A stretch of 64,000 nucleotides of DNA from Fervidobacterium pennivorans. Its GTDB lineage: Bacteria > Thermotogota > Thermotogae > Thermotogales > Fervidobacteriaceae. The DNA is taken from contig NZ_CP011393.1 in NCBI RefSeq assembly GCF_001644665.1, forward strand, positions 1,076,001 to 1,140,000, in the 5' to 3' direction. The position numbers and the translations under genes were made by a program. Positions 13,241 to 23,120 of the stretch are shown here, in pieces. Below the pieces are notes generated by a model. That model was given only the letters and a program-made list of their open reading frames with translations. It made no database searches and had not been told where the DNA came from. The stretch's first letter is position 1. Each line of letters begins with the position of its first letter.

Positions 13241-15007
13241 ATGGTAACTATCTATATCAACGACAAACCTTATCAAGTTCCAGAAAACAAAACAGTGCTT
13301 GAAGCTGCGGCAGATTTAGGTTTCAAAATTCCAACCCTTTGTCACCATCCCGAACTCGAACCAATTGGAGCTTGTAGAATATGTGTTGTTGAAATTGAGG
13401 GGGCAAGAACGCTCCAACCTGCTTGTACAACAAAAGTTGCCGATGGAATGAAGATAAAGACAAACACGGAAAGAGTAGAAAGCGCAGTCAAGTTCAACCT
13501 TTCTTTGATAATGTCGAACCATCCCCACGAATGTATGTACTGTGAAGCAGATGGGCGCTGTGAACTTCAAAAACTTGTTCACATGTACGATGTTCAACCT
13601 ATATTTGGTGTAAATGTTAACATAGAAAAAGAAATAGATATGAGTAGCCCTTCTGTTCACAGAGACCTGTCCAAGTGTATTAAGTGTCAGAGATGTGTGA
13701 GAGTGTGTAGTGAAATACAGGGTATGAACATATACTCAATGATTGAACGTGGTTACGAATCCCTACCAGAGACAGAATTCGGCGTCCCACTTTACGAAAC
13801 TGACTGTATAAGCTGCGGTCAGTGTGCCAACTTGTGTCCAGTAGGAGCTATTTACGAAGCACCAGACTGGAAGAAAGTTTGGAAAATGCTAAACAGCAAG
13901 GAACCCGGCAAAGTTTACGTTGCACAAACAGCTCCATCTGTCAGGGTTGCAATAGGTGAAGAATTTGGCATGGAACCCGGAAGCATAAGCACAGGGAAGA
14001 TGGTTGCTGCACTTAGAAGACTTGGTTTCGACTATGTATTTGATACAAACTTCGCAGCTGACCTTACAATTATGGAAGAGGGTTACGAACTCATTGGAAG
14101 GCTCCAAAACGGCGGTAAGTTCCCAATGTTCACAAGCTGCTGCCCTGGTTGGGTAAACGAAATGGAGAAAGAATGGCCCGAACTCAGAGAACACCTCTCA
14201 ACGGCAAAGTCCCCACAACAGATGATGAGTAGTGTTGTCAAAACATACTTTGCACAAAAGATAGGTGTGAAACCTGAAGATATAGTTATGGTATCAATTA
14301 TGCCATGTACAGCTAAGAAAGACGAAATAACAAGACCACAACAATTGGTCGACGGTATCAAAGTAACGGATTACGTCATTACAACAAGAGAACTCGGAAA
14401 GCTCATTAAACTCAAAGGTATACCATTCGTAAATCTTCCAGAAGAACAGTATGATAGCCCACTTGGAACATCAACAGGTGCTGCTGCGCTCTTTGGTGTG
14501 ACTGGTGGTGTTATGGAAGCAGCTCTCAGAACAGCTTACGAAGTTTTGACAGGCGAGAAATTACCGAAACTTGTGTTCGAAAGCGTACGAGGCCTGGATG
14601 GTGTAAGAGAAGCAGAAATTGATATCAATGGAAGAAAACTCAAAGTAGCTATTGCACACGGTATGGCAAGTGTGAAAAAATTGCTGAGAGAAATGAAAGA
14701 AGGGAAACGATACTACGACTTTGTCGAGATAATGGCGTGTCTTGGTGGTTGTATCGGTGGCGGTGGACAACCGAAGAGCCTTGACCCAGATATTCTTAAG
14801 AAACGTGCACAAGCTATTTACACCATTGACGAACTCAGCGTACTGAGAAGGTCACATGAAAACCCAGATATCATAAAACTCTACGAAGAATTCTTAGAAA
14901 AACCGAACAGCCACATCGCACACCACTTGTTGCATACACACTACACCGATAGGTCAAGAGCCGTCAGGAAGGCTCAACAACAAAAAGAGGTTGAAAAGGT
15001 TAACTAA
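13241..15007 (+). CDS. hydA: [FeFe] hydrogenase, CpI-like, first copy
   Basis: A 588-residue group A [FeFe] hydrogenase that reduces protons to H2 with electrons from ferredoxin. Domains in order: an N-terminal [2Fe-2S] domain (Cys34, 45, 48, 62); a His-ligated [4Fe-4S] motif HPHECMYCEADGRC; two ferredoxin clusters (CIKCQRCVRVC and CISCGQCANLCP); then the H-cluster domain. H-cluster loops: TSCCPGW with Cys300/301, MPCTAKKDE with Cys356, and MACLGGCIGGGGQP with Cys500/504. These are one residue off the numbering of Clostridium pasteurianum CpI, and all ligands are present. The small-subunit tail HIAHHLLHTHYTDR follows. No HydB/HydC (bifurcating) partners are in the window, so it is probably ferredoxin-linked. 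ACGGAGGTGG decides the start at 13241. Confidence 0.95.
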   Translation: MVTIYINDKPYQVPENKTVLEAAADLGFKIPTLCHHPELEPIGACRICVVEIEGARTLQPACTTKVADGMKIKTNTERVESAVKFNLSLIMSNHPHECMYCEADGRCELQKLVHMYDVQPIFGVNVNIEKEIDMSSPSVHRDLSKCIKCQRCVRVCSEIQGMNIYSMIERGYESLPETEFGVPLYETDCISCGQCANLCPVGAIYEAPDWKKVWKMLNSKEPGKVYVAQTAPSVRVAIGEEFGMEPGSISTGKMVAALRRLGFDYVFDTNFAADLTIMEEGYELIGRLQNGGKFPMFTSCCPGWVNEMEKEWPELREHLSTAKSPQQMMSSVVKTYFAQKIGVKPEDIVMVSIMPCTAKKDEITRPQQLVDGIKVTDYVITTRELGKLIKLKGIPFVNLPEEQYDSPLGTSTGAAALFGVTGGVMEAALRTAYEVLTGEKLPKLVFESVRGLDGVREAEIDINGRKLKVAIAHGMASVKKLLREMKEGKRYYDFVEIMACLGGCIGGGGQPKSLDPDILKKRAQAIYTIDELSVLRRSHENPDIIKLYEEFLEKPNSHIAHHLLHTHYTDRSRAVRKAQQQKEVEKVN

Positions 15008-15022
15008 AACTTACGCTTAGAA

Positions 15023-15055
15023 GCGCTGGTGTGCTTTACGCACACCAGCTTTTTT
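15023..15055 (+). terminator. Terminator after the first hydrogenase gene
   Basis: A perfect 10-bp stem (GCTGGTGTGC at 15025-15034 with 15040-15049) around a 5-base loop is followed by six T. It separates the two hydA genes into different transcription units. Confidence 0.95.
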
Positions 15056-15148: not shown

Positions 15149-15178
15149 TTGTATACTCATATGTTTTTGTGTTATAAT
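15149..15178 (+). promoter_or_regulatory. Promoter of the second hydrogenase/maturase operon
   Basis: TTGTAT at 15149-15154 and TATAAT at 15173-15178 are 18 bases apart. Transcription starting near 15185 would give a leader of about 240 nucleotides before the second hydA. Confidence 0.7.
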
Positions 15179-15184
15179 ATTTAC

Positions 15185-15424
15185 GACATGTGAATATTTT
15201 CGCTAAGTGTTTGTTTGTGCTTTCTGAGGTGAAGGAGCGAATTGCTCTGACACCAAGGAAAGAGGGATGGAGATTATATCGTAAAGCAAAACTTTGTATT
15301 GAGCAATAATGGCTTGCACTGTACAAACATAGTTGGGCTTTATTAAAATCAATTCGTCCCTCTTTCCTTGGGTAAAGGAAAGAGGGATTTTTGTTTTTAG
15401 CTCCGCTATGAAAGGAGGGGTACC
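15185..15424 (+). ncRNA. Putative riboswitch/attenuator leader of the second hydrogenase gene
   Basis: The leader contains three mutually exclusive pairing segments: A at 15253-15267, B at 15357-15371 and C at 15375-15387. A pairs with B over 15 bp without mismatch. B (15357-15369) pairs with C over 13 bp without mismatch, and that hairpin is followed by a T-rich tract. A and C are direct repeats of AAGGAAAGAGGGA. Upstream, 15220-15262 can fold into a three-helix hairpin: CTTTC with GAAAG, GGTG with CACC, and GAGC with GCTC, separated by two symmetric UGA/AAG internal loops in opposite orientation. That hairpin uses the 5' half of A, so its formation would free B for the terminator. This is switch architecture by inspection; the ligand or protein is unknown and I recognise no known riboswitch class. 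Confidence 0.75.
15357..15399 (+). terminator. Conditional terminator in the second hydA leader
   Basis: A 13-bp perfect stem (15357-15369 with 15375-15387), a 5-base GGGTA loop and TTTTTGTTTTT at 15388-15398. It ends about 25 bases before the ATG, so it would switch the whole downstream operon rather than end an upstream gene. The alternative partner is segment A at 15253-15267. Confidence 0.85.
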
Positions 15425-17191
15425 ATGGTTACAATTTATATCAACGGTAACAAACATGAGGTTGAAGAAGGGAAAACAATACTTGAAGTAGCGTCACAAC
15501 TTGGATATCACATACCCACCCTGTGTCATCATCCTGAACTCCAGCCCATCGGAGCTTGTAGAATTTGTGTTGTAGAGGTCGAGGGATTCAAGACGCTTCA
15601 GCCCGCATGCGCAACCAAAGTTGCCGATGGAATGGTAATACGGACAAACACAGAACGTGTTGAAAATGCAGTCAAGCTGAACCTTGAATTGGTTATGGCA
15701 AACCATCCACACGAATGTATGTATTGTGAAGCTGATGGTAGGTGTGAACTCCAAAAACTTGTCCATATGTACGATGTTCAACCTATCTTTGGGATTTCTG
15801 TTAGTTTCCCTAAGTATATAGACACAAGCAGTCCATCGATTCACAGAGACCTAACAAAATGTATAAAATGTCAGCGGTGTGTACGCGTGTGTAGTGAGAT
15901 ACAAGGCATGAACATATATTCTATGATAGAGCGAGGATATGAAACAGTCCCAGAAACAGAATTTGGATTGCCTGTTTATGAAACGAACTGTATCAGTTGT
16001 GGGCAATGCGCTTACTTGTGTCCCGTTGGGGCAATATACGAAGCTCCAACTTGGAAAAAACTACTACACATGCTTGAAAACAAAAACGGAAAGGTGTTTA
16101 TAGCACAGACTGCTCCTTCGGTGAGAGTGGCAATCGGAGAGGAATTTGGCATGGAACCAGGAACTGTGAGTACTGGAAAGATGGTTGCGGCACTTAGAAG
16201 ATTAGGCTTTGACTACGTTTTTGATACAAATTTCGGAGCGGACTTAACGATAATGGAAGAAGCACACGAACTTCTCCATAGACTAACAAAAGGCGGAGTA
16301 TTACCTATGTTCACAAGCTGTTGTCCGGGTTGGGTAAACATGGTTGAAAAAGAGTTTCCGGAGTTCATACCAAACCTATCGACAACAAAATCTCCAATGC
16401 AAATAATGAGTAGTACTCGCGAGTATTTTGCAAAGAAACTTGGAGTCGCACCTGAAAATATCGTTATGGTAGCTGTTATGCCGTGCACAGCAAAAAAAGA
16501 TGAGATAGAGCGCTCTCAACACGTTGTAAACGGCATAAAAGTTACAGACTATGTTATAACAACCCGTGAGTTTGCAAAGATGCTAAAGCTTAAAGGTATT
16601 TCATTTGTAAATCTTCCGGAGGAAAAGCATGACAGCCCACTTGGTGCCTCTTCAGGTGCGGGTGCTATATTCGGTGTCACTGGTGGTGTTATGGAAGCCG
16701 CACTGAGGACTGCTTACGAAAAATTCACAGGTGAGAAATTGCCAAGGCTTGTCTTTTCTGAAGTTAGAGGTTTGGATGGGATTAGGGAAGCAGAAGTTGA
16801 TTTCAAAACAAGAAAACTTAAGGTTGCAATTGTAAACGGAACCGGAAATGCTAAAAAGTTGCTGAAGGAAATCAAGGAAGGAAAGAGAAATTATGATTTT
16901 GTTGAAGTCATGGCTTGTATGGGAGGTTGTATCGGTGGTGGTGGTCAACCCAAGAGTTTAGATCCTGATATTATTAAGAAGCGTGCCAGAGCCATCTATA
17001 GTATAGACGAAATGAGCGTTATCAGACGCTCACACGAAAACCCAGAAATTATTCAACTTTATGAAGAATTCATAGGAGAACCTAACGGTCACATAGCTCA
17101 CCATTATCTCCATACTTACTATACGGACAGGTCAAAAGCAAAAAGAAGACAAGAGAAAAGTTCAGTAGAAAAATCAGCTGGAGGGAAATAA
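15425..17191 (+). CDS. hydA: [FeFe] hydrogenase, CpI-like, second copy
   Basis: A 588-residue close paralogue of the first copy with identical domain order: [2Fe-2S] N-domain, His-ligated [4Fe-4S], two ferredoxin clusters, H-cluster domain and small-subunit tail. H-cluster loops are intact: TSCCPGW with Cys299/300, MPCTAKKDE with Cys354, and MACMGGCIGGGGQP with Cys498/502. Differences from the first copy cluster in surface stretches, such as the loop after the H-cluster-proximal Cys pair and the C-terminal tail. AAAGGAGGGG precedes the ATG. It heads an operon with the TM1266-like gene, hydG, the 88-residue gene and hydE, and sits behind the attenuator-like leader. This copy is therefore the one expressed with the maturases. 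Confidence 0.95.
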   Translation: MVTIYINGNKHEVEEGKTILEVASQLGYHIPTLCHHPELQPIGACRICVVEVEGFKTLQPACATKVADGMVIRTNTERVENAVKLNLELVMANHPHECMYCEADGRCELQKLVHMYDVQPIFGISVSFPKYIDTSSPSIHRDLTKCIKCQRCVRVCSEIQGMNIYSMIERGYETVPETEFGLPVYETNCISCGQCAYLCPVGAIYEAPTWKKLLHMLENKNGKVFIAQTAPSVRVAIGEEFGMEPGTVSTGKMVAALRRLGFDYVFDTNFGADLTIMEEAHELLHRLTKGGVLPMFTSCCPGWVNMVEKEFPEFIPNLSTTKSPMQIMSSTREYFAKKLGVAPENIVMVAVMPCTAKKDEIERSQHVVNGIKVTDYVITTREFAKMLKLKGISFVNLPEEKHDSPLGASSGAGAIFGVTGGVMEAALRTAYEKFTGEKLPRLVFSEVRGLDGIREAEVDFKTRKLKVAIVNGTGNAKKLLKEIKEGKRNYDFVEVMACMGGCIGGGGQPKSLDPDIIKKRARAIYSIDEMSVIRRSHENPEIIQLYEEFIGEPNGHIAHHYLHTYYTDRSKAKRRQEKSSVEKSAGGK

Positions 17192-17446
17192 ATGGAAGAA
17201 AAGAAGGAAAGATACTACACGGTTGACATAATTGTCCATGACAGAGAAAATGCTTATTCTAAAGTGAATGAGCTTCTCCATCAATACGCAGATATTATCA
17301 AACTCAGGGTAGGGTATCCGGTTCCTGATGAAAATATAGCCATCGTGTTTCTTATAGTTAGAACAACAAACGACAATGTCGGAGCATTTACGGGAAAATT
17401 GGGGAATATAAAAGGTGTGAAAGTGAAAAGTGTGGCTGTAAACTAA
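17192..17446 (+). CDS. TM1266-like putative hydrogenase system regulator
   Basis: An 84-residue protein with the pattern of the TM1266 family (ACT/NikR C-terminal-like ferredoxin fold), a family regularly found beside [FeFe] hydrogenase maturases and called a putative iron-only hydrogenase regulator. Seen: YYTVDIIVHDRENAYSKVNELLHQY, then IKLRVGYPVPDENIAIVFLIV and GNIKGVKVKSVAV, the expected beta-alpha-beta repeats. It has no DNA-binding domain, so regulation would be by binding a small molecule or another protein. Its ATG follows the hydA stop without a gap; the ribosome binding site GGAGGG lies inside the end of hydA. Confidence 0.82.
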   Translation: MEEKKERYYTVDIIVHDRENAYSKVNELLHQYADIIKLRVGYPVPDENIAIVFLIVRTTNDNVGAFTGKLGNIKGVKVKSVAVN

Positions 17447-17481
17447 GGATATTAAATCGATTAAATTCGGAGGTGGCAAGT

Positions 17482-18891
17482 ATGTATGTATTTACAAAAG
17501 AAGTTGACACAGAAAAAACATTCGTCCCAGAGGCAGAAATTTGGGAATTGCTTGAAAAGACAAAAAACCCTGATAGAAAAAGAGTTTTGGAGATTCTTGA
17601 TAAATCATTGAACAAAAACAGGCTCGAGCCTGAGGAAGTGGCAACTCTACTCAATGTTGAAGACCCAGAACTGCTCGAAGAAATCTTCCATGCTGCAAGA
17701 ACTCTTAAGGAACGTATATATGGCAACAGAATTGTCCTTTTTGCACCACTTTACATAGGAAACGACTGTGTTAATGATTGTGTCTATTGTGGATTTAGGA
17801 CCTCTAACAAAGAGGTTTACAGAAAAACTTTGACCTTTGAAGAGCTTAGAAATGAAGTCAGAGCTCTTGTTTCTAAGGGGCACAAAAGATTGATAGTAGT
17901 TTACGGCGAACATCCAAGATACAGCCCCGAGTTCATAGCTGAAACAATTAGAATAATTTATGAAACCAAAGTCGGAAACGGAGAGATTAGAAGAGTAAAC
18001 GTGAATGCGGCACCACAAACTGTCGAGGGTTACAAAATCATCAAAGAAGCAGGTATTGGAACATTCCAAATCTTCCAAGAAACCTATCATCAGCCAACTT
18101 ACAAAAAACTTCACCCCAGAGGTCCAAAATCGAATTACGCTTGGAGATTATATGGTCTTGACCGCGCCATGATTGCCGGCATAGATGATGTTGGAATTGG
18201 GGCACTCTTCGGTTTGTTCAACTGGAAATTCGAAGTAATGGGGTTAATTTACCACACAATACACCTTGAAGAACGTTTTGGAGTTGGTCCTCACACAATT
18301 TCGTTCCCAAGAATAGAGCCCGCCGTTGGTAGCGAGATTTCATACAATCCGCCACACAAAGTTAGTGATGAAGACTTCAAAAAGCTTGTTGCTATAATAA
18401 GACTTGCTGTGCCATACACTGGTATGATTCTCACAGCTCGTGAACCTGCTCAATTGAGAAGAGAAGTTCTCAAAATGGGCGTTTCTCAAATCGATGGAGG
18501 CTCGAGTATTGGCATTGGTTCGTATTCACAAGACGACCCAGAGAAAGTAAGGAAAAGCCAGTTCATACTTGGTGATAACAGGTCACTTGAAGAAGTTATC
18601 CAAGACCTACTAAAAGAAGGATACATTCCATCCTTCTGTACAGCGTGTTACAGAATGGGACGAACAGGAGAGCACTTCATGGAATTCGCTATCCCGGGAT
18701 TCGTGAAAAGATTCTGCACTCCAAACGCTCTCTTCACGCTCAGAGAATATCTGAACGATTACGCCACAGAGGAAACTAAAAGACTTGGTTATGAGTTAAT
18801 CCAAAAAGAGCTCGAGCGTGTGAATAACAGGGAACTGGTTGAAAAATACCTCGAGCGGATTGACCGCGGTGAGAGAGATGTCAGATTTTGA
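17482..18891 (+). CDS. hydG: [FeFe] hydrogenase maturase HydG, radical SAM tyrosine lyase
   Basis: A 469-residue radical SAM enzyme that cleaves tyrosine to p-cresol and makes the Fe(CO)2(CN) synthon for the H-cluster. The N-terminal cluster motif is CVNDCVYCGF (CX3CX2C) near residue 96. The diagnostic C-terminal motif of HydG, absent from ThiH, is present: CTACYRMG with a third Cys 22 residues later in VKRFCTPNA. Length fits HydG (about 470). A GTG nine bases upstream overlaps the Shine-Dalgarno AGGTGG, so the ATG at 17482 is the better start. Its end overlaps the next gene by 14 bases. Confidence 0.96.
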   Translation: MYVFTKEVDTEKTFVPEAEIWELLEKTKNPDRKRVLEILDKSLNKNRLEPEEVATLLNVEDPELLEEIFHAARTLKERIYGNRIVLFAPLYIGNDCVNDCVYCGFRTSNKEVYRKTLTFEELRNEVRALVSKGHKRLIVVYGEHPRYSPEFIAETIRIIYETKVGNGEIRRVNVNAAPQTVEGYKIIKEAGIGTFQIFQETYHQPTYKKLHPRGPKSNYAWRLYGLDRAMIAGIDDVGIGALFGLFNWKFEVMGLIYHTIHLEERFGVGPHTISFPRIEPAVGSEISYNPPHKVSDEDFKKLVAIIRLAVPYTGMILTAREPAQLRREVLKMGVSQIDGGSSIGIGSYSQDDPEKVRKSQFILGDNRSLEEVIQDLLKEGYIPSFCTACYRMGRTGEHFMEFAIPGFVKRFCTPNALFTLREYLNDYATEETKRLGYELIQKELERVNNRELVEKYLERIDRGERDVRF

Positions 18892-19144
18892 AAAACTCAG
18901 TGAAGTATTAAAACCTTATGCAGAAAGGTTAAACACAAAAATATGGGTATGTGAAAAGATAGGACGGAGGTTGTCTTGTATCGCAAGAGCAGGAGAAGAA
19001 AGTTACCGCGAAAGCTTCATCGCATACGAAGACGATAAATACGCTGTGTTCTGCGAACGCGAAATAACTGATGAGGAGAAAAACTTAATAATGCAAGCTT
19101 TGGATGACATCGTCAAATTCCGCAAGCTCTTGATAAGTTCTTAA
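18878..19144 (+). CDS. Unknown 88-residue protein between hydG and hydE
   Basis: I do not recognise this protein. It begins MSDFEKLSEVLKPYAERL and has a short beta-rich middle (KIWVCEKIGRRLSCIARAG, then YAVFCEREITDEEK) and an alpha-helical end (LIMQALDDIVKFRKLLISS). There are three cysteines (VCEK, SCIA, FCER), none in a CxxC. Charged and cytoplasmic in character, with no signal peptide. It starts inside the last codons of hydG (ATG at 18878, with GGTGAGAG upstream) and ends 25 bases before hydE, so it is co-translated with two H-cluster maturases. An accessory role in H-cluster assembly is inference from position only. Confidence 0.8.
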   Translation: MSDFEKLSEVLKPYAERLNTKIWVCEKIGRRLSCIARAGEESYRESFIAYEDDKYAVFCEREITDEEKNLIMQALDDIVKFRKLLISS

Positions 19145-19169: not shown

Positions 19170-20225
19170 ATGTTGGATGTAAAAAAAATACAAAATGTTG
19201 ACCTGGATTACCTAACACACGTAATAAAGAGTGGAAAATACGATGAGGAGATATTCAAAACAGCTGATGAAATCAGAAGAAAATACGTTGGTGAAGAAGT
19301 TCATTTAAGGGCAATCATAGAATTTTCCAATATATGCACGCAGCATTGCCTTTACTGTGGGCTAAGAGCGGACAACAAGAATTTACAACGGTACAGGATG
19401 AGCCCTGAGGAAATTATCGAACGAGCAAGGCTAATTGCAAAGCTCGGTATTAAAACAATAGTTCTTCAATCAGGTGAAGACCCGTATTATACAACGGAAA
19501 TCATAAGTCATCTGATAACAGAAATAAAAAAGCTTGATGTCGCAATCACACTCAGCATAGGCGAACGTGGGTTTGAAGAATACCGTATATGGAAAGAATT
19601 GGGAGCAGACAGATACTTAATGAGACATGAAACTGCTGCACCTGAACTTTATGCAAAACTCCATCCTAACGATAGTTTTGAAAACAGGAAGGCACACTTG
19701 TATGAGTTGAAACGTCTTGGTTACGAAACAGGTGCTGGTTTCATGGTTGGGTTGCCTGGACAAACAGCGTATGATTTAGCATTAGACCTTGCATTCCTTA
19801 AAGAGCTTGATGCTGACATGATAGGTATTGGACCTTTTATACCAAACCCAGACACACCACTGAAAGATGCAAAAGGTGGGGATTTACAAACGACGCTTCG
19901 AATGATTGCGCTCGCAAGAATTGTTGTACCAACTGCAAACATACCAGCAACAACCGCTCTTGGGTCAATAAACCCGTTTGGAAGACAGTATGGACTAAAA
20001 TATGGTGCAAACGTAATTATGCCCAACTTGACTCCCAACCCATATAGACCAAATTATTCGTTGTATCCTGGAAAGATATGTCTATTTGAAAGAGATACAG
20101 CTTGTGTTGAATGTACAAAGCAAATGATTAGAAGTGTCGGACTTGTTGTAGGAGAAGGTTATGGATACAGAAAGAAGACGGAGATGAGTGAGGAAAAAGA
20201 AGTGCTAAACGTTGAAAAGGCATAA
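19170..20225 (+). CDS. hydE: [FeFe] hydrogenase maturase HydE, radical SAM
   Basis: A 351-residue radical SAM enzyme of H-cluster assembly that acts on the HydG iron-cysteine product. The cluster motif CTQHCLYCGLR (CX3CX2C) lies near residue 55. Then come LQSGEDPYY, the conserved glycine-rich MVGLPGQTAYDLALDL and MIGIGPFIPNPDTPL, a typical HydE stretch. The C-terminal tail (TEMSEEKEVLNVEKA) is variable. Length matches the family (about 350). GAGGTGATTTCCC precedes the ATG. It is the last gene of the hydA2 operon; a GC-rich hairpin follows. Confidence 0.96.
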   Translation: MLDVKKIQNVDLDYLTHVIKSGKYDEEIFKTADEIRRKYVGEEVHLRAIIEFSNICTQHCLYCGLRADNKNLQRYRMSPEEIIERARLIAKLGIKTIVLQSGEDPYYTTEIISHLITEIKKLDVAITLSIGERGFEEYRIWKELGADRYLMRHETAAPELYAKLHPNDSFENRKAHLYELKRLGYETGAGFMVGLPGQTAYDLALDLAFLKELDADMIGIGPFIPNPDTPLKDAKGGDLQTTLRMIALARIVVPTANIPATTALGSINPFGRQYGLKYGANVIMPNLTPNPYRPNYSLYPGKICLFERDTACVECTKQMIRSVGLVVGEGYGYRKKTEMSEEKEVLNVEKA

Positions 20226-20280: not shown

Positions 20281-20550
20281 TCACACTTCGAGTTTCATGT
20301 ACTTTGCTTGAACACCATCGATAGTATTCAATTTCTGGCAAAGTTCTTCATGCTTTGTCTCGTCATCAACTAATTCAAGAATGATAAGTCCAACGGGCGA
20401 ACAATACTGACCTGCGCCTTCGTGGAGTCCCAAACGCGTTTTGATATAACAACCATACTCTGTCAAAAGCTTTTGCACTTCGACGGCTGCCTGCTCTCTT
20501 TTGTCAACAAGAATCGCCATAACCGTTCTTACTGTGATATCCTTTGGCAT
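20281..20550 (-). CDS. Second TM1266-like putative hydrogenase system regulator
   Basis: An 89-residue protein of the same small ferredoxin-fold family as the gene at 17192, but divergent from it: TVRTVMAILVDKREQAAVEVQKLL, YIKTRLGLHEGAGQYCSPVG, then LIILELVDDETKHEELCQKL. The middle glycine-rich GLHEGAGQYC stretch, including a cysteine, is a candidate ligand site. It is transcribed away from the ABC transporter/hydF operon from its own strong promoter, unlike the operon-embedded copy. AAGGAGAAGGGGGTG precedes the ATG. Sensing function inferred. Confidence 0.8.
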   Translation of the reverse strand: MPKDITVRTVMAILVDKREQAAVEVQKLLTEYGCYIKTRLGLHEGAGQYCSPVGLIILELVDDETKHEELCQKLNTIDGVQAKYMKLEV

Positions 20551-20612: not shown

Positions 20613-20691
20613 AAATGTCACAATGTGTAATTTTTTAAATGAACCAAATTAGAAGAAATAAACAGCCAAAAAAATCGAAAGGAGAATGCAT

Positions 20692-21438
20692 TTGGAAAAT
20701 CTCTGGAAATACCTAACAGGCATATTAGTTATATTTATCACTTGGACAGTGCTCTCGTTTTTAATCAGCTCACAACTAATTCTTCCTGACCCGTTGATGG
20801 TTCTGAAGACCTTGATATCAGAGCTCCAGAAATCAGAAGTTTTGGAGGCGTTGGTTATAACCCTTTCCAAAATAGGGGTTGTCTTAGCAACTACTGTGAC
20901 ATTCGGTGTCCTGATAGGATTTTTTATAGGTTTAAATGATGTAGTATACGACATCTTAAGACCTGGCATACTTGTTATCCAAGCGGTACCAATCATAACC
21001 TGGCTTGCATTGGTAATGTTTATTTGGGGCATAGGGTGGCTTGGACCAGTTATAGTCAGTATATTATCACTCTTGCCACATACTATATTATCAACAGCGA
21101 TTGGTATAAGAACAACAGACAAAAGATTAATAGAGATGGCGAAGGTATATAGAGTGCCTCGCTCAAAAGTGATTAGGAACATATACCTTGGTTCAATTGT
21201 TCCTCAACTTCTTAGTGCTCTACAAGTAATCATAGGTAACGTATGGAAAGTCGTTGTTGTAGCGGAATACATGTGTGGAGACAAAGGTATTGGCGTACTC
21301 ATAGCTTGGGCAAGACAATCAGTTGCAGTAGAAAAAGTTTACGCATACACAGCAATCATAATACTCATAGGTCTTATCGTCGAAAACATACTTAACCACT
21401 TTGTCAGGAAACTTCTAAAAAACTGGGAGTTGGTTTAA
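20692..21438 (+). CDS. ABC transporter permease, NitT/TauT/SsuC type
   Basis: A 248-residue inner-membrane permease with about six membrane segments. The EAA loop motif, in the form KVYRVPRSKVIRNIYLGSIVPQL, lies near residue 155; such proteins import nitrate, sulfonates, taurine, or pyrimidine and vitamin precursors. The start is taken as TTG at 20692, because the AAAGGAGA ribosome binding site abuts the ATG at 20686 too closely and leaves proper spacing for the TTG. It forms a compact operon with the ATPase, the binding protein, hydF and aspA. Confidence 0.85.
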   Translation: MENLWKYLTGILVIFITWTVLSFLISSQLILPDPLMVLKTLISELQKSEVLEALVITLSKIGVVLATTVTFGVLIGFFIGLNDVVYDILRPGILVIQAVPIITWLALVMFIWGIGWLGPVIVSILSLLPHTILSTAIGIRTTDKRLIEMAKVYRVPRSKVIRNIYLGSIVPQLLSALQVIIGNVWKVVVVAEYMCGDKGIGVLIAWARQSVAVEKVYAYTAIIILIGLIVENILNHFVRKLLKNWELV

Positions 21439-22185
21439 TTGGCTAATTTAGATAAAATAAATCGTAAAACATTGGGCAATACACGAAACACAGTTATTCT
21501 AAATGTGAAATCAGTAAGCAAGTATTACGGAAAATTGAAAGTAATTGAAGACATATCCTTTGATTTGAGCAGAGGAGAATCTATAGCCCTGCTTGGTCCT
21601 TCTGGATGTGGAAAGACAACACTCATACGTATTATTGCTGGTTTAATAAACGATTACGAAGGAGCTATCGAATGCAAAGTGCAGAAAATTGGTTACGTCT
21701 TCCAAGAACCTAGGCTGATACCTTGGAAAACGGTTATCGACAATCTGAAATTTGTTGAAGAAAACGAAGAACGAATATTTAAAACCTTAGAAGCGTTGAA
21801 ACTAAAGGACTTTGCTAACTTCAAACCATCAAAACTGAGTGGTGGGATGAGACAACGAGTCAACTTAGCAAGAGCTTTGATTATTGAACCAGAGCTACTT
21901 CTTTTGGATGAGCCGTTTGCTTCTCTTGACGTGCATTTAAAAGTTTCCATAATCTCGGATATAATTGAAAGAAGGAAAGATATGAACTTTTCGATGATTG
22001 TTGTAACTCATGATGTCAGAGAAGCGCTCTTGCTATCAGACAAAATCTATATGTTGAGTGACAAGCCCAGTAGCATAATTGAAGAAATCGACGTTTCCAA
22101 TGTTCCAAAGGATATATCAAATCCGGAATTTCATAAGGCTGAATCTCAAATTCTTTCAAAAATCTTAGGGAGGTGGATTGGATGA
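21439..22185 (+). CDS. ABC transporter ATP-binding protein, NitT/TauT type
   Basis: A 248-residue ATPase. Walker A is GPSGCGKTTL (near residue 55), the Q-loop is VFQEPRLIPW, the signature motif is LSGGMRQRVNLARAL and Walker B is LLLLDEPFASLD, followed by the H-loop VTHDVREAL. These are hallmarks of SsuB/TauB-like importers. It starts with a TTG directly after the permease stop, and its end overlaps the binding-protein gene by 4 bases. Confidence 0.92.
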   Translation: MANLDKINRKTLGNTRNTVILNVKSVSKYYGKLKVIEDISFDLSRGESIALLGPSGCGKTTLIRIIAGLINDYEGAIECKVQKIGYVFQEPRLIPWKTVIDNLKFVEENEERIFKTLEALKLKDFANFKPSKLSGGMRQRVNLARALIIEPELLLLDEPFASLDVHLKVSIISDIIERRKDMNFSMIVVTHDVREALLLSDKIYMLSDKPSSIIEEIDVSNVPKDISNPEFHKAESQILSKILGRWIG

Positions 22186-23120
22186 AAGGCGTTAAGCTAT
22201 TTGGGAAAGTTTTTGTGTTTATATCAGTCTTAGTAACAGTTGCAGTTTTCGGAGTTACGTTCATCAACCCGTTTGGTCCCACAATATTCCCCGTGGCAGG
22301 TTTAATAAGCAAAGAGGTAAAAACGGATATAGCTCTTGACATGAAGTTCTGGAAAACTATGGACGAAGCAACAGCTTACATTGTTTCAAAGAAAGTGAAC
22401 TTTGCTGCATTACCGGTAACCTTTGGTGCGAACCTTTACACAAAAGGTGTCGATGTTAGACTCGTAGGCGTCTATAGCTGGCGATTGTTCTACGTTGTGG
22501 CAAGCCCTGATTTTGAATTTAAAGGTTTTCAGAGCTTCAAAGGAGAAAAGATATACACAGCGCACGGTAGAGGTCAAACAGCAGATGTTGTTCTTAGGTT
22601 CTTACTTGTAAAGAACGGACTTGAACCCGACAGGGATGTTACATTTGCTTACGCCCAGCCACAAGAAATAGTTTCACTTTTCAATAGCGGAAAAATTAAA
22701 ATTGCTGCAATCCCGGAACCATTTGTGACAATGACGTTGTCAAAGGGAAAGGTAATCATGGACTTGCAAGATGAATGGAACAAGGCAACCGGTTTCAAAT
22801 TTGGAATACCAATAACAGGACTCTTCGTGACAGGAAAGTTGATAGATTACCCGCAAACCGTTAAACTCTTTGAAAAGTCGTTCAAAGAAAGCCTTTCATG
22901 GTCATACAAGAACGTAGACAAAGCTGTTGAAATAACAAGCAAACAGCTAGGAATACCTACAAACATCCTTAAGGCATCTCTTGAAAGAAGCCAATACAAT
23001 TACATTTCTGCTGCAGAATGTCGGGACGAAGTTCTCGCATACCTCAAAAAGCTTAACGAACTTTATCCAGATGGTATGCCAAAAGTACCAGATGAAAAAT
23101 TCTTTTACATCGTTAAATAA
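22182..23120 (+). CDS. ABC transporter substrate-binding protein, NMT1/NitT type
   Basis: A 312-residue exported binding protein: the N-terminal hydrophobic segment [16 protein letters not shown] serves as signal or anchor. Features of the NMT1/SsuA-like group follow: [16 protein letters not shown], a polar [19 protein letters not shown] stretch where the ligand usually binds, then [14 protein letters not shown]. Such proteins bind sulfonates, nitrate, thiamine-pyrimidine precursors or related small molecules; the ligand cannot be deduced here. The ATG at 22182 is preferred over the GTG at 22173 because that GTG overlaps AGGGAGGTGG. The next gene is hydF, 23 bases on, which ties the transporter to H-cluster assembly by position. 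Confidence 0.87.

Follow-up and report, generated by a model that had tools for sequence, protein, structure and literature searches.

A two-fold symmetric leader hairpin before H-cluster assembly genes, a candidate target of the TM1266 protein family

Here we present a short RNA hairpin that stands before H-cluster genes in many anaerobic bacteria and that, judged by comparative sequence analysis, most likely shuts these genes off when a partner, probably a protein of the TM1266 family, binds to it. It lies in the window, by which we mean the whole stretch of 64,000 nucleotides analysed here, taken from the genome of Fervidobacterium pennivorans (2.06 Mb, a single contig), in a leader before an operon that opens with a second [FeFe] hydrogenase gene. 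The sequence of the hairpin, its covariation, the set of genes that it precedes and the recurrence of an antiterminator and a terminator are demonstrated below. On balance our judgement inclines, by a little, to a leader that acts as an attenuator, in which the hairpin would be the candidate site of TM1266 and would serve feedback repression of H-cluster assembly. The wider proposal, on which belief and doubt are for us evenly weighted, is that TM1266 proteins form a new family of sequence-specific RNA-binding repressors, in which a lone ACT/NikR-C-like domain would recognise a two-fold symmetric RNA helix by its two tandem G-A loops, take a metal or an H-cluster intermediate as its signal, and, either through termination or through masking of the ribosome-binding site, turn off hydE, hydF, hydG and, at some loci, aspA and a transporter, in Thermotogota, Riflebacteria and Clostridia.

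The leader lies between two hydrogenase genes on the forward strand, which is also the strand of the leader parts and operon genes given below. A terminator at 15025-15049 comes after the hydA1 frame, whose end is at 15007. An extended -10 promoter element (TG-N-TATAAT), absent from the output of a consensus scan, can be read at 15170-15178, and transcription is expected to start downstream of it, near 15185. At the start of the leader there is a Rex-like operator, TGTGAATATTTTCGCT (15189-15204), with 2 mismatches to TGTGAAN4TTCACA; the Rex operator consensus, as given in PMC6391272, is TTGTGAANNNNTTCACAA. The putative sensor hairpin follows at 15220-15262, a two-fold symmetric CUGA-N4-RARG element recognised from its sequence, its relatives and its covariation, which reads CUUUC-UGA-GGUG-AAG-GAGC-gaauu-GCUC-UGA-CACC-AAG-GAAAG. 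The core of its 5′ strand (15225-15234) consists of UGA (15225-15227), the middle stem GGUG (15228-15231) and AAG (15232-15234), and the core of its 3′ strand (15248-15257) of UGA (15248-15250), CACC (15251-15254) and AAG (15255-15257); the two UGA/AAG internal loops in opposite orientation that a first-pass annotation had described are thus present. The 3′ arm of the hairpin overlaps and holds the first 10 bases of segment A (15253-15267), the 5′ strand of the antiterminator, and the hairpin uses the 5′ part of this segment as that annotation had said. Segment B (15357-15371) is the exact complement of A and may pair either with A, as antiterminator, or with segment C (15375-15387), which repeats the last 13 bases of A and, together with a T-rich tract (15388-15398), forms the 3′ half of an intrinsic terminator (15375-15398).

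Sequence reading, folds and a terminator scan agree on the positions of hairpin, antiterminator and terminator, and with them the repeat and complement relations of A, B and C stand as first described. The scan returned a 14-bp stem at 15356-15388, followed by TTTTGTTTTT, upstream of the hydA2 start codon, and the pairing of A with B reaches 19 bp once G-U pairs are counted. The leader folds at -82.4 kcal/mol, where 200 dinucleotide-shuffled sequences give -56.4 (sd 4.3; z = -6.0), and the free energies of the hairpin and the terminator alone are -20.4 and -22.9 kcal/mol. For an RNA that stops after B, the fold of minimum energy pairs A with B; once C is present, it contains the hairpin and the terminator, as is expected of an attenuator decided during transcription. 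These folds support the logic put forward at the outset, in which the hairpin would remove A, B would pair with C and the operon would be off. Two sequence features that mark an intrinsic-terminator attenuator are found, namely a G+C-containing stem and a U-rich tract before the start, with an antiterminator conserved in relatives. The first hydA had been said to have no such leader, and as far as tested it has none, the one exact-pattern match in the genome and the one match of our covariance model R1 at E<=1 both falling at 15220-15262.

Downstream of the leader, the first gene is hydA2 (15425-17191, ATG at 15425), which encodes a group A6 [FeFe] hydrogenase. It is followed by the gene for a TM1266-family protein (17192-17446; profile matches to TIGR03959 and PF21699), our proposed RNA-binding partner, by the maturase gene hydG (17473-18891), by orf101 (18839-19144), a small ORF of 101 aa that overlaps the end of hydG, keeps the same place in relatives and has no match at E<=0.001 in NCBIfam or Pfam, and by the maturase gene hydE (19170-20225). 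Adjoining the operon on the reverse strand is a second TM1266-like protein, of the CPF_0552 family (NF052672, 20281-20550); many genomes of Thermotogota have TIGR03959 matches of low score, which presumably represent this paralogue. An ABC transporter (permease, ATPase and NMT1-like binding protein) lies between hydE and hydF at 20686-23120.

The hairpin is well supported, by alignments of its relatives, as an independent RNA element made of two facing copies of 5′-CUGA-NNNN-RARG-3′. In these alignments the middle stem covaries and the UGA/RAR loops are nearly unchanged. Two-sided changes affect 7 of 12 pairs and 96.9% of cells pair among 16 distinct sequences from the window's family (alignment A1), and all 4 middle-stem pairs show two-sided changes, with 95.1% of their cells pairing, among 56 sequences (A5), both alignments being hand-picked from the matches with duplicates and some matches left out. 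The larger alignment has a covariation score of 0.621 against 0.235 when shuffled, every slid version scoring lower, and two-sided change in 164 cells against 57.6; two of the five measures, the number of pairs with two-sided changes (9 against 8.1) and the number of pair types (28 against 26.3), do not rise above shuffles. Its outer helix pairs in 74.3% of cells. Covariation in relatives had been set beforehand as a test that could refute the element, and the element passed it.

The stem can change altogether. In Clostridia a middle stem of UUGC/GCAA differs from the GGUG/CACC of the window at all eight positions. When candidates were selected by their loops only, so that pairing was not required (other locus scores reward it), a fully complementary 4/4 middle stem was found in 16/29 candidates upstream of TM1266, hydE, hydF or hydG and in 1/41 elsewhere in TM1266-positive Clostridia loci (Fisher 3.6e-7), in 13/44 hyd-upstream against 3/114 elsewhere in genome-contig loci, part of which are in the training set of our model R2, and in 4/9 against 1/49 in TM1266-negative loci; since the genomes are related, Fisher values here and below overstate independence. 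A second type of loop, UGA facing RAA, stands before TM1266, hydE or hydG in several TM1266-positive Clostridia loci that have no R2 match. Since the U of the loops faces G or A, a U-R pair may form at this position, which would leave a G.A / A.R tandem as the conserved core. As the first-pass annotation had recognised no known riboswitch class, so Rfam 15 gave no family at its gathering threshold at the hairpin, in the window and at 15 further loci. CUGA recalls box D. A kink-turn of the box C/D type, considered on that account, was rejected, no 3-nt bulge being apparent.

All 18 loci of the window's family, that is, the window and 17 relatives, carry the hairpin. In 15 of the 17 relatives it directly precedes TM1266-hydG-orf101-hydE, and an extra hydA between hairpin and TM1266 is confined, among the 18, to the window, L032 (G001) and L035 (G004). 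The leader had been read as controlling hydA2, hydG and hydE; a switch leader before the operon it is, and with TM1266 standing first in 15 of 17 relatives it is not specific to hydA. Across the phylum, R1 matches at E<=1e-3 in 63 of 103 genomes, all 63 of which encode TM1266 and HydG; at E<=1 the count is 72 of 103, part of which we treated as noise. The weak matches in G031, G041:C92 and G099 were rejected in this way, having no hyd gene in the stretch around them, and those in G086, G087, G037, G026 and G074 (E 0.03 to 0.8) were left out of the reading of gene context. For 40 further matches, a selection made up of 39 outside the family and the second match of G008, the first TM1266, hydE, hydF or hydG gene within 400 nt downstream was TM1266 in 25, hydF in 6, hydG in 6, hydE in 1 and none in 2. 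The hydF hairpins (L079, L081, L090, L094, L103, L106) lie apart from the hydG locus, and these second, unlinked hairpins in six genomes indicate that the regulated set would be the genes for H-cluster assembly rather than hydA as such. By eye, L102, L105, L108, L109 and L113 have after hydA a hairpin and then, in the usual place of TM1266, a start codon with a terminator-like repeat, which may be a leader peptide or a relic.

The means of switching recurs as well. A and B pair over at least 9 contiguous positions in 50 of 57 phylum leaders and in 47 of 285 mononucleotide shuffles. Of the seven leaders below this length, five (L100, L101, L103, L104, L107) instead carry a GAGGAGG ribosome site in the 3′ arm of the hairpin, just before the ATG. 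Outside the phylum, 14 of 22 hand-picked hairpins are accompanied within 150 nt by a terminator-like structure, and every one of these 14 precedes TM1266; three hairpins of Riflebacteria type and three before hydG have none and adjoin the start codon, and the terminator scan (150 nt) gave no match for L197 and L213. A held hairpin should mean OFF in both layouts, termination and masking of the start codon.

Rex-like operators, with at most 2 mismatches and at most 110 nt upstream of the hairpin, are found in 21 of 56 phylum leaders and in 5 of 560 mononucleotide shuffles. In L040-L048 the leader comes directly after hydA, has no Rex-like site and may separate maturase expression from hydrogenase expression within one transcript. 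Such an operator next to the hairpin, and the fact that A, B and C are repeats or complements of one another, so that a hairpin might arise by chance, are what would speak for there being no RNA sensor, the hairpin serving as an operator in DNA or arising as a by-product of the terminator repeats; this we find very hard to credit, as the unpaired positions are conserved and the paired ones vary with compensation, and as some hairpins have no terminator and abut the start codon. According to PMC6391272, Rex in Caldicellulosiruptor bescii controls a 'CopG family' gene together with hydG, and our guess is that this gene is a homologue of TM1266. Table 3 of PMC7039931 gives for Thermotoga neapolitana under CO2 a joint rise of the regulator (5.98-fold), HydG (6.39) and HydE (7.52), with HydA at 1.8-fold and HydF at 1.28-fold. 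In these values the operon moves as a unit, whatever the mechanism, and HydF does not follow; this flat expression contrasts with the hairpin that Thermotoga-like genomes have before hydF.

What, then, holds the hairpin? Its symmetric shape, its position before TM1266 and its joint presence with TM1266 in the phylum suggest a site for a protein more than an aptamer for a metabolite. The TM1266 protein of the window has 84 residues, is ACT/NikR-C-like and has no DNA-binding domain; it scores 103.6 bits against TIGR03959 (cut-off 60.8), and its only Pfam matches are PF21699 and NikR_C. The predicted structure (pLDDT 93.8), for which Foldseek returned 2NZC and then the NikR C-domain, IlvN and the Rel ACT domain, is that of a lone domain of ACT-like fold. 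Of the 70 HydG genomes of the phylum, 64 of the 65 that encode TM1266 have the motif, counting G054, where it was found outside model R1, and none of the 5 without TM1266 has it; the remaining TM1266-positive genome, G023, has TM1266 and HydG, and no hairpin was found there. The five genomes without TM1266, of which G066 and G068 were read directly, belong to one genus and so amount to about one event of loss, and G071, another species of that genus, has both motif and TM1266. In G027-G030, G038-G040 and G101 TM1266 lies away from the motif, which in some of them stays before hydG, an arrangement that fits a trans-acting factor. The first-pass annotation had proposed an undescribed RNA switch; the switch holds up, and TM1266, whose place directly behind the leader in relatives that annotation missed, is its probable partner.

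The symmetry would suit any homo-oligomer. Another RNA-binding protein might therefore hold the hairpin, be it a maturase such as HydF, the CPF_0552-family paralogue, whose gene lies beside the operon (20281-20550), or a general binder of tandem G-A pairs, and there are hairpins in genomes with no TM1266 match. We nevertheless think this improbable, since the hairpin most often stands directly before TM1266 itself (25 of 40 further matches), and since, for the paralogue, the low TIGR03959 matches that presumably represent it also occur in G042, G045 and G046, all of which lack an R1 match and HydG.

The search for relatives had at first been framed around Fervidobacterium and Thermosipho; conservation there was borne out, and the range proved wider, taking in Thermotogota, MAGs of Riflebacteria type and Clostridia. 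Of 80 TM1266 loci from named contigs, the best 80 of 213 relatives, four (titled Rifleibacterium, Ozemobacter, Riflebacteria and one 'Erysipelotrichia' MAG) have an R1 match immediately ahead of TM1266. In Clostridia, scanning by rules turned up a related hairpin upstream of TM1266, and its score reached at least 15 within 400 nt upstream in 26 of the 80 loci, where 10 of 1600 mononucleotide shuffles reached 14. Model R2 matched 30 of the TM1266 loci at E<1e-3, 23 of which were in its training set, so that these matches are not independent. It matched 27 of the 38 genomes behind those loci at E<=0.05, many of these genomes having been chosen for the motif; its matches away from TM1266 precede hydG (L231, L233, L239, L242), hydE-hydF (L237), hydE (L245, E 0.028) and, in L236, an ABC permease/ATPase pair, and no hyd context surrounds those in L244, L247 and L248.

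In 341 genomes of the class of Thermobrachium celere (Clostridia), R2 gave 30 matches at E<=0.01 in 28 genomes, only that of G103 having been in its training set. Twenty-three of the 30 lie before TM1266 (9), hydF (6), hydG (6, L268 included in our reading as preceding hydG) or hydE (2), and three more before aspA (L257, L267) and a nuoE-like gene (L251); L264, L266 and L269 have no convincing context. The match in L273 comes after TM1266 and before the gene of a membrane protein. Small, similar-looking membrane proteins beside TM1266 and a hairpin match are encoded at L273:1671-2195 and L243:1904-2425; by eye they resemble ECF S-components, and neither has an NCBIfam match at 1e-10.

The link between TM1266 and the hairpin is weaker in Clostridia than in the window's phylum. 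Scored by locus, the hairpin is found in 21 of 46 hyd loci with TM1266 and in 3 of 34 without (Fisher p 0.0004), the other 25 of the 46 having no descriptor match before a hyd gene; by the loops alone the counts are 15 of 46 and 4 of 34 (Fisher p 0.036). These 80 loci include the 20 after which the loop rule was widened to RAA, of which the TM1266-positive ones had been picked for lack of an R2 match and L302 for having one; the 34 negative loci are L302 and the 33 of 48 negatives with a listed hydG position, and the other TM1266-positive regions were chosen by hand among genomes with listed positions. Counted by genome, R2 matches anywhere in 11 of 40 TM1266-positive and 3 of 40 negative genomes, and before a hyd gene in 4 and 1 of 40, the matches L279-L283 in the positives having no hyd context; the positives were drawn by script from 167 double positives minus those reached earlier, and the negatives are 40 of 48 HydG-positive, TM1266-negative genomes, 8 having been dropped arbitrarily. 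Four contexts in TM1266-negative loci were found by loops only, and by eye the hairpins before hydG in L302 (G332) and L304 (G154) are convincing, those in L306 and L319 not; completeness is not given for the two genomes. The motif falls in TM1266 genomes in 63 of 63 cases in the phylum, and in Clostridia there are two convincing exceptions among the 34 TM1266-negative loci.

These two hairpins, and the weak link by R2, are among the reasons why a ligand-binding riboswitch is the main rival to TM1266. The UGA/RAR loops would then bind a small molecule or metal of H-cluster metabolism (e.g. Fe2+, SAM, tyrosine or a CO/CN iron intermediate); the TM1266 gene itself would simply be among those regulated. 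The wide distribution, the near-invariant loops and the two expression platforms, such as riboswitches have, would all suit it. We hold it to be unlikely, if far from negligible, for the element, some 40 nt long, shows no junction, carries two equal 3x3 loops separated by 4 bp and looks more like the site of a dimer, and in the window's phylum it is present and lost jointly with TM1266.

We prefer TM1266 as partner; in the following model, the OFF polarity, the binder, the feedback and the effector are inferred. A factor that holds the hairpin would take segment A away; with A unavailable, the B:C terminator would form, and RNA polymerase would stop before hydA2-TM1266-hydG-orf101-hydE. With no factor, A:B would form, the terminator would be blocked and the operon would be read. 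TM1266, as a homo-oligomer seated on both of the equal loops, would be the factor, its co-effector being a metal, a cofactor or a maturation intermediate, and the operon would repress itself once H-cluster assembly suffices. Genomes with the other layout would use this hairpin to cover the ribosome-binding site.

A specific RNA target would allow a direct test both of the way in which cells adjust their supply of H-cluster maturases to demand and of TM1266, which has a structure (2NZC) and no function in the records. The hairpin is also a tool for searching genomes, its copies marking H-cluster genes, including aspA, the gene of aspartate ammonia-lyase, in three loci (L200:8030-8068, reverse strand; L257:1501-1539, reverse strand; L267:652-696, forward strand). 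The aspA matches fit an independent tie, reported in 2024, of AspA to the dithiomethylamine ligand of the H-cluster: in PMC11736057, AspA together with aspartate provided the nitrogen of this ligand in vitro, and a link between aspA and hyd operons is described. The matches were chosen independently of that paper. The ABC transporter behind the hairpin in one locus (L236) may likewise belong to the H-cluster pathway. A transporter similar to that of the window follows TM1266 in L125, and the hairpin of L236 stands before a permease/ATPase pair; these transporters are possibly suppliers for H-cluster assembly.

The window's protein is a member of the TM1266 / TIGR03959 / PF21699 family (PDB 2NZC), which is annotated only as a putative regulator of the hydrogenase system, and neither records nor publications among the matches listed name a target site for it; the hairpin is a candidate for that target. 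Our literature search, which covered few subscription journals or preprints, gave no report of the hairpin or of an RNA target of TM1266 among the matches listed. The best Rfam score in the leader is that of the PyrG leader (RF02371; 35.3 bits, gathering threshold 65), for a match at 15316-15398 around the terminator stem-loop that excludes the hairpin, and the genes differ; we rejected it, and likewise rejected PyrR (RF00515) as the identity of the leader (cmscan, 21.3 bits against 54). The UAA/GAN internal loop is a known RNA motif. Some copies of the hairpin have UAA facing GAR, but most have UGA rather than UAA, often facing AAG, and the likeness is judged by sequence. The portion of PMC2965389 available to us does not mention hydrogenase or Thermotoga.

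Two systems of protein-bound leaders that decide on termination are also close. The RAT of BglG, LicT and SacY is a short hairpin with two internal loops and a pseudo-two-fold symmetry, bound by a small homodimeric domain; it overlaps the terminator decision, and binding prevents termination. The hydrogenase leader is like it in placing a short, symmetric two-loop hairpin at the terminator decision. It is probably unlike it in sequence, and unlike it in outcome, since holding the hairpin here should cause termination, and Pfam finds no PRD/CAT-type domain in TM1266, only PF21699 and NikR_C. In the PyrR-binding attenuator, a protein-bound hairpin competes with the antiterminator and the bound state terminates. 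This is the same logic as we propose for the hydrogenase leader, at different genes. Attenuators and protein-bound leader hairpins are known kinds; judged by our literature search and Rfam 15, the hairpin before the H-cluster genes adds a new class to them, and its partner may be an RNA-binding protein of a new type.
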